NCBI GenBank assembly: GCA_002189035.1 | Contig: CM007991.1 | Coordinates: 3,782,001-3,846,000, forward strand | Direction of reading: 5' to 3' | Source: Utricularia gibba | Taxonomy: Eukaryota; Streptophyta; Magnoliopsida; Lamiales; Lentibulariaceae | DNA length: 64,000 bases | In this document: positions 52,119 to 53,513 of the stretch, one piece after another | Position numbering within the stretch: the stretch's first letter is position 1 | Layout of the letters: each line of letters begins with the position of its first letter | Program-made: the position numbers and the translations under genes | Notes under the pieces: model-generated | What the model saw: only the letters and a program-made list of their open reading frames with translations | What the model was told of the DNA's origin: nothing | Database searches by the model: none

Positions 52119-53513
52119 ATGGAGTCTGAGAGTTATATGTTTGGTACTTACAAAATCGACCCTAAGGAAGTGTTTTATACCACTAGGCTTTCGTACGCTC
52201 TGGTCAATTTACGCCCGGTTGTTCCTGGTGCACATTTTTTCCATTTGATTCTGTTTCTTTCTTAAGTTCAGTGCTTGATTTTGTGGGGCTTGCGTTCGTG
52301 GAATTTCACATGCGTTTGATTGGAAAGTTAGTAGAGTCGGGTGACAAACCTTGATGTCCTAGATTAGTTTGGAGCCTGAATCTGGAATCTTGATTAATCA
52401 ATTTTCAAAACTTTTTGAAAGATGAAAAGGCCGGCATGTTGATTTTGCTTTAGAACCCCCATGACAATTTACAATGTGAAAACTTCTAGATCCGTATTTG
52501 TAGCATCAAAATTCCTTCTGACACAGCATATGTGCGATCTTCAGTGCAAGTGATACATGAATCAATTATCTTGAAGCATTTGTGGTTATTTTACCACATT
52601 CAAAGTGATATATGCTTTCCTAGTTTTTCCACACGCAAAGTGATTTTTTCCATGTTGTCCCGCATTATTCTAATGTCCTTGTTATCCTATTGCAGGTCAT
52701 ATCCTTTGCTCTTTTGACAACAGCATGCCCTGTTAGTGGCATGCTTTCTTATGTTATTTGGGTTGACGCTGGTAGCATTTATACTCTAAATTTTGTTTCC
52801 TGTGACGTGTAGCATGTAGCTCACTGAAGTAATCTTTGGCGAGTTTTTTGAGTTTGCATGTAATACTACAGCCGCAGCACTTGAAAAATTAGAGCTATAA
52901 AAGAGCATTTTCGATTTAGTGTGCACTGAACATGTCTGCTGTCTTTTTTGGTTGCCCTTGACGAAAATCTACATGTGCTTGTGTGCCCAAGACGTATTGT
53001 GAAGCGCGTTGCTGATCTCTCTGCTGATGAAGTAAGTGATTTATGGCTCACTGCGCAGCAGATCGGACGCCATCTTGAGTCGTACCATAAAGCATCTTCA
53101 CTTACATTTACCATCCAAGTAAGATTGAGCAAGCTTTTGATAATAGAAATCACAGATAATTCTCATGAAGCTTATTATGAATGCTGTTTCATTAGTTTAG
53201 TTTCGAATCCCTCTAACTTTAGTGTACCTCCAGGATGGGCCTCAGGCAGGTCAGACAGTACCCATGTTCACATCCACATCCTGCCACGCAAAACCGGTGA
53301 CTTTGAGAAGAATGATGAGATTTATGATGCTGTAAGATGATGCCTATGCAATCTTTTCTTCGGTTTAAACTCCTACCATGATAACCCTTTGGACAGATTG
53401 ATTTGAAGGAGGAAGAATTGAAGCAGAAGCTTGATCTGGACATTGAGAGGAAGGACAGGACCATGGAGGAGATGTGTGAAGAGGCAAGTGAATACAGGAA
53501 GCTCTTTTTGTAG
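52119..53513 (+). CDS. FHIT: FHIT homologue, bis(5'-adenosyl)-triphosphatase
   Basis: HIT-superfamily hydrolase that cleaves diadenosine triphosphate (Ap3A) to AMP and ADP. Exons: 52119-52227, a 3-nt microexon 52696-52698, 52973-53118, 53234-53331 and 53397-53513; with one base restored, 157 residues, the length usual for plant FHIT. Motifs are [51 protein letters not shown]-like, DGPQAGQTVPHVHIHILPR (the HxHxH catalytic triad region) and the C-terminal helix with EELKQKLDLDIERKDR. Exon 1 (CCT G), the microexon (GTC) and exon 3 (AT GTG) combine to GGT CAT GTG, reading exactly PGHVLVC. The intron after the microexon has AT-AC ends. The frame slips at CCC 53261-53263, just before the HIT motif. 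Position matches At5g58240 from memory. Confidence 0.88.
52696..52698 (+). other. 3-nt microexon of the FHIT homologue
   Basis: GTC lies between an acceptor TATTGCAG and the AT-AC donor ATATCCTTT. It is required to read [10 protein letters not shown] through three exons in phase. Confidence 0.75.
52699..52972 (+). other. U12-type AT-AC intron in the FHIT homologue
   Basis: The donor is ATATCCTTT, identical to the AT-AC consensus. The branch region CCCTTGAC (52955-52962) puts the branch A 11 bases before the terminal AC. There is no AG near the exon 3 start, so a U2-type acceptor cannot explain this junction. Confidence 0.82.
53261..53263 (+). other. one-base loss before the HIT motif of FHIT
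   Basis: GTACCCATG stands where GTACCCCATG would read TVPHVHIHILPR. Both flanks are otherwise perfect. Confidence 0.85.

Follow-up and report, generated by a model that had tools for sequence, protein, structure and literature searches.

Utricularia gibba has a small genome with a single gene for FHIT, bis(5'-adenosyl)-triphosphatase, and this gene very probably contains an exon of just three nucleotides. In the best overall explanation of the locus, FHIT exon 2 consists of GTC, with a U2-type GT-AG intron upstream and a U12-type AT-AC intron downstream. This arrangement appears to be real and unusual, and it is strongly implied by the sequence of the window, i.e. the whole stretch of 64,000 nucleotides that was analysed. 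The structure had been proposed in an earlier, sequence-only reading on the basis of several elements (the exon 1 end CCT-G, the acceptor before the GTC, the GTC itself, a U12 donor, a branch region and a terminal AC), and each of these is seen in the sequence where that reading put it.

The product of the gene matches bis(5'-adenosyl)-triphosphatase with a phmmer E-value of 8.4e-46 when the frame of exon 4 is read through, and the HIT domain is recognised in exon 3. A genome search found no second FHIT copy, and one other HIT match lies on contig C1. The start codon is the ATG at 52107, with an alternative ATG possible at 52119. An intact single-exon open reading frame for a RING-H2 finger protein lies just 3' of FHIT, at 54365-54952. 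The features of the gene are as follows.

52107..52227, plus strand: FHIT exon 1, ending ...GTT CCT G in phase 1; from the translation, and fits FHIT structures.
52228..52695, plus strand: intron 1, U2-type GT-AG; from the sequence, the enumeration of donors and acceptors, and its single copy in the genome.
52696..52698, plus strand: predicted microexon (exon 2), GTC, 3 nt; the flanking G and AT complete GGT CAT, Gly-His.
52699..52972, plus strand: intron 2, predicted U12-type AT-AC; from the 8/8 donor match and the pairing with U11 and U6atac.
52954..52962, plus strand: putative U12 branch site GCCCTTGAC, core CCTTGAC, branch A at 52961.
52973..53118, plus strand: FHIT exon 3, 146 nt, AT GTG CTT GTG TGC ... 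ATC CAA; carries the HIT domain.
53119..53233, plus strand: intron 3, GT-AG, phase 0; from the sequence.
53234..53331, plus strand: FHIT exon 4, with one nucleotide apparently lost at GTACCC-ATG (about 53266-53271).
53332..53396, plus strand: intron 4, GT-AG, 3' border approximate; from the sequence.
53397..53514, plus strand: last FHIT exon, IDLKEEELKQKLDLDIERKDRTMEEMCEEASEYRKLFL, stop TAG, 5' border approximate.

The argument for the microexon begins at exon 3. Reading upstream from this exon in the frame of HVLVCPRR, the first stop is a TGA at 52927. The sequence-only reading had held that no AG precedes exon 3, and indeed none lies between this stop and 52973; a GT-AG or GC-AG intron therefore cannot deliver exon 3. 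Since no intron ending in AG can reach it, the intron must end in AC. The stretch 52927-52973 holds only three AC dinucleotides, ending at 52931, 52962 and 52972, and single introns that use these require either GT-AC ends or poor AT donors; none of them gives PGHVLVC. All single introns from exon 1 to exon 3 with GT-AG, GC-AG, AT-AC, GT-AC or AT-AG ends were considered, and none yields this motif. The terminal AC of the earlier proposal is present at 52971-52972, but the exact start of exon 3, at 52973, had been left loose.

With the U12 donor fixed at 52699, the acceptors 5' of it lie before 52696, 52641, 52624 and 52606, among other positions. Apart from the one before 52696, no acceptor gives an exon 2 that is both in frame and open. 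The enumeration leaves two in-frame solutions with an identical GTC exon, one using a GT donor at 52228 and the other a GC donor at 52213; the former retains all residues, the latter loses five. As had been suggested, treating GTC as an exon restores GGT CAT GTG and recovers PGHVLVC, with the top Pfam HIT score of 69.4 bits. The rival products score 61.8 (PGAHVLVC), 53.6 (PDVLVC) and 48.1 bits (a shortened product). The spliced protein aligns with human and mouse FHIT across the microexon junction without a gap, and the reading continues to ...QDGPQAGQTVP. If a coding microexon is taken to be an internal exon of at most 15 nt, with introns on both sides, that makes the frame continuous and a conserved motif complete, the predicted GTC exon would be one. 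Within standard splice-site rules, the sequence comes close to forcing the predicted microexon structure.

The signals of intron 2 are those of a U12-type intron. The donor ATATCCTTT at 52699-52707 matches RTATCCTT at 8/8 positions and is the sole 8/8 match in 52200-52960. A branch-site sequence, CCCTTGAC, is found at 52955-52962; the longer form, GCCCTTGAC, matches TTCCTTRAC at 7/9 positions with the CCTTGAC core complete. The branch A is located 11 nt from the intron end, and the branch-to-end optimum in U12-type introns is 11-13 nt (PMC3584512). The intron begins with AT (52699-52700) and ends with the AC described above. As U12-type introns are defined by donor and branch site rather than by their termini (PMC3584512), and both fit the published definition, the evidence supports a U12-type AT-AC intron that is predicted to be removed by the minor spliceosome. 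AT-AC introns that are spliced by the major spliceosome have G at position +5 (PMC2831892); here +5 is C. Intron 2 is by itself ordinary, since 26% of the U12-type introns of Arabidopsis are AT-AC (PMC7367187). It interrupts PGHVLVC, a conserved motif, within the codon for His.

In order to estimate how readily such a structure arises by chance, 400,000 first-order Markov sequences were modelled on the composition of the intron region. In this set ATATCCTT occurred in 1.4% and a correctly placed CCTTRAC in 0.09%. The combination of an in-frame AG, an exon of 3n nt (at most 15 nt), ATATCCTT and a correctly spaced CCTTRAC was met once in 400,000 (about 2e-6). Requiring that the exon also code for Gly-His makes the chance still smaller than this.

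The components needed to recognise such an intron were also sought in the genome. Genes for three RNAs of the minor spliceosome, U11, U12 and U6atac, were found (loci L012, L003 and L004). Each is preceded by a TATA-like box and by CCCACATCG, which is the upstream element of plant snRNA genes. The donor ATATCCTTT pairs with the 5' end of U11 at -6.6 kcal/mol and with U6atac at -6.5 kcal/mol, and the branch site of intron 2 pairs with U12 at -5.0 kcal/mol. Genome searches of limited sensitivity found neither U4atac nor a match to the U11-48K zinc finger. When the genome was searched with a pattern for other AT-AC U12 introns, 80-110 nt long, there were 2 matches, L010 and L011, against 5 for the reversed control pattern. 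Both are candidate AT-AC U12-type introns with open coding frames on both sides (judged by eye for L010), and they hint weakly at further members of this type.

Intron 1 is of the U2 type, with a strong acceptor and a weak donor. The acceptor sequence TATTGCAG ends at 52695, within the context CTAAT...TCCTATTGCAG. Exon 1 ends CCT-G at 52227 and GTGCAC follows; this donor, CTG/GTGCAC, matches the consensus at 6/9 positions by eye. Retention of intron 1 would lead to an early stop, a TAA near 52263 (by eye). A 21-nt direct repeat is the sole repeat noted inside the intron. A recent insertion of a mobile element or introner was considered as its source and rejected, as the genome holds no other copy. 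An inverted repeat of 12 nt (92% complementary) places one arm in each intron, at 52537-52548 and 52922-52933, with the microexon between them; this could be chance.

All of the alternatives that were tested explain the locus less well than a 3-nt exon between a U2 and a U12 intron, and the earlier interpretation is supported in this respect. The alternative that survives best, although we regard it as unlikely, is that the gene is a recent pseudogene, in which the frameshift of exon 4 is real, leaving the splice sites as relics and the microexon without a function today. The frame break itself had been missed in the earlier reading. Exon 4 reads GAT GGG CCT CAG GCA GGT CAG ACA GTA CCC ATG, and an apparent 1-nt deletion puts HVHIHILPRK in a different frame from DGPQAGQTVP. 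The downstream frame is HVHIHILPRKTGDFEKNDEIYDA; the catalytic HVHIH (the HxHxH triad) is encoded, but lies 3' of the deletion and thus out of frame in the assembly. This is also the sole FHIT copy found in the genome. On the other hand, all other exons and splice sites are intact, and a pseudogene of recent date would still carry the exon structure that it inherited. A receptor kinase on the minus strand of the window (45074-47203) shows a similar single-C deletion in a C run: the frame of its leucine-rich repeats changes at a run of CTCC near 46681-46684. That two otherwise intact genes within 64 kb have each lost a single base in a C run points to residual assembly errors. The exon 4 break is thus likely to be a residual assembly error, while a true recent mutation, in a decaying gene whose splicing is no longer under selection, is possible.

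We consider it very unlikely that exons 1 and 3 are joined by a single AT-AC intron, 52234-52972, without a microexon. Such an intron has AT and AC ends and an open frame, and it would cost only one inserted residue: CCT GGT GCA C would give PGAHVLVC, with one extra Ala. However, its donor ATTTTTTCC matches the U12 consensus at only 5/8 positions and has no CC for pairing with U11 (-2.3 kcal/mol, against -6.6 for ATATCCTTT), the perfect U12 donor lies 465 nt 3' of it, and FHIT structures have no insertion at the position of this Ala. Slightly less probable again is a single GT-AC intron, 52228-52972, which would leave out the microexon and lead to PDVLVC, perhaps in an alternative isoform. It would keep the frame, but its ends are of a disfavoured kind (PMC3584512), its GTGCAC donor has no pairing with U11, and loss of the invariant Gly-His lowers the HIT score by 15.8 bits. 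The least probable option is that AG/GTCATA is a recursive U2 splice site with a zero-length exon: TTGCAG/GTCATA has the look of one, but the second step would be a GT-AC intron leading to PDVLVC, and exon 3 has no AG acceptor. Transcripts of these structures would differ at the junction, which reads CCTG-GTC-ATGTG with the microexon and CCTG-ATGTG or CCTGGTGCAC-ATGTG otherwise.

Some parts of the microexon structure have known counterparts. U12 introns with U2 introns as neighbours are the rule. Coding microexons of 1 nt are known from plants, in APC11 and VPS55 (PMC8831610). Like the GTC exon of FHIT, these are internal coding exons of a few nucleotides that a conserved protein needs and that annotation misses; they lie between GT-AG or GC-AG introns, whereas that of FHIT lies beside a predicted U12-type AT-AC intron. 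FHIT intron 2 fits known U12-type AT-AC introns in donor, branch site, branch-to-end distance and ends (PMC3584512, PMC7367187), but their upstream exon normally allows exon-bridging contacts between spliceosomes, and that of FHIT is 3 nt long. What appears to be new is a 3-nt exon between introns of both kinds.

Two further systems bring both splicing machineries close together. In the USSE of the U11-48K and U11/U12-65K genes a U12-type donor lies close 3' of a U2 acceptor, and U11 activates that acceptor. Those donors take no part in splicing, and their distance from the acceptor is conserved, whereas the FHIT donor is predicted to be used and is 3 nt from the acceptor. In the U2/U12 twintrons of Drosophila prospero and dUrp both spliceosomes also act at overlapping or adjacent sites, but as alternatives nested in one intron; FHIT would have two successive introns, both removed. 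The literature searched showed no 3-nt exon between U2 and U12 introns and no mention of FHIT together with U12-type introns, and one scan of viral contigs found no relatives of the locus.

The architecture of these sites is observed, and from it we infer an order of splicing and a role for U11. A 3-nt exon cannot hold the U2 3' splice-site complex and the U11 complex together, so the introns are most likely removed sequentially. U12 introns are spliced slowly (PMC3584512), and for this reason the U2 intron would in most cases be the first to be removed. In the most likely course of events, the U2 spliceosome would join exon 1 to GTC, placing ...CCTGGTC directly 5' of the intact U12 donor, and the slower minor spliceosome would then excise the AT-AC intron. 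A very short exon would be no obstacle in itself to U11, since exon bases are not paired by U11 (PMC3584512). U11 bound to the U12 donor may also help to activate the adjoining U2 acceptor: once U11 sits on a U12 donor, it can activate a U2 acceptor upstream of it, as in the USSE (PMC3584512, PMC8329584), and the adjacent donor might in this way offset the weak CTG/GTGCAC donor of intron 1. The likely origin of the microexon is a U2 intron that was gained, or shifted, to a position 3 nt 5' of an older U12 intron. The human FHIT gene also has an intron in the same His codon.

The finding has consequences for annotation and for the study of splicing. The prediction in the earlier reading that gene callers would miss such an exon is plausible, given that the main survey of microexons in plants was by design confined to GT-AG and GC-AG introns (PMC8831610). 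Microexons that adjoin AT-AC introns would therefore be absent from it. Standard gene-finding and microexon surveys would share a blind spot for a 3-nt exon flanked by an AT-AC intron.

Exon-bridging complexes are seen as the main route of cross-talk between the two spliceosomes. As a 3-nt exon has no room for such a bridge, FHIT may serve as a natural test of whether successive U2 and U12 introns can be spliced without one, and in which order. It is possible, if on balance doubtful, that the microexon is conserved or regulated and needs the ordered action of both spliceosomes, with U2 splicing building the exon end for the U12 donor or U11 recruiting the U2 acceptor across 3 nt. If this is true, the output of FHIT would vary with the balance between the two machines, and its microexon would be the first known member of a class that has been overlooked, microexons flanked by AT-AC introns.
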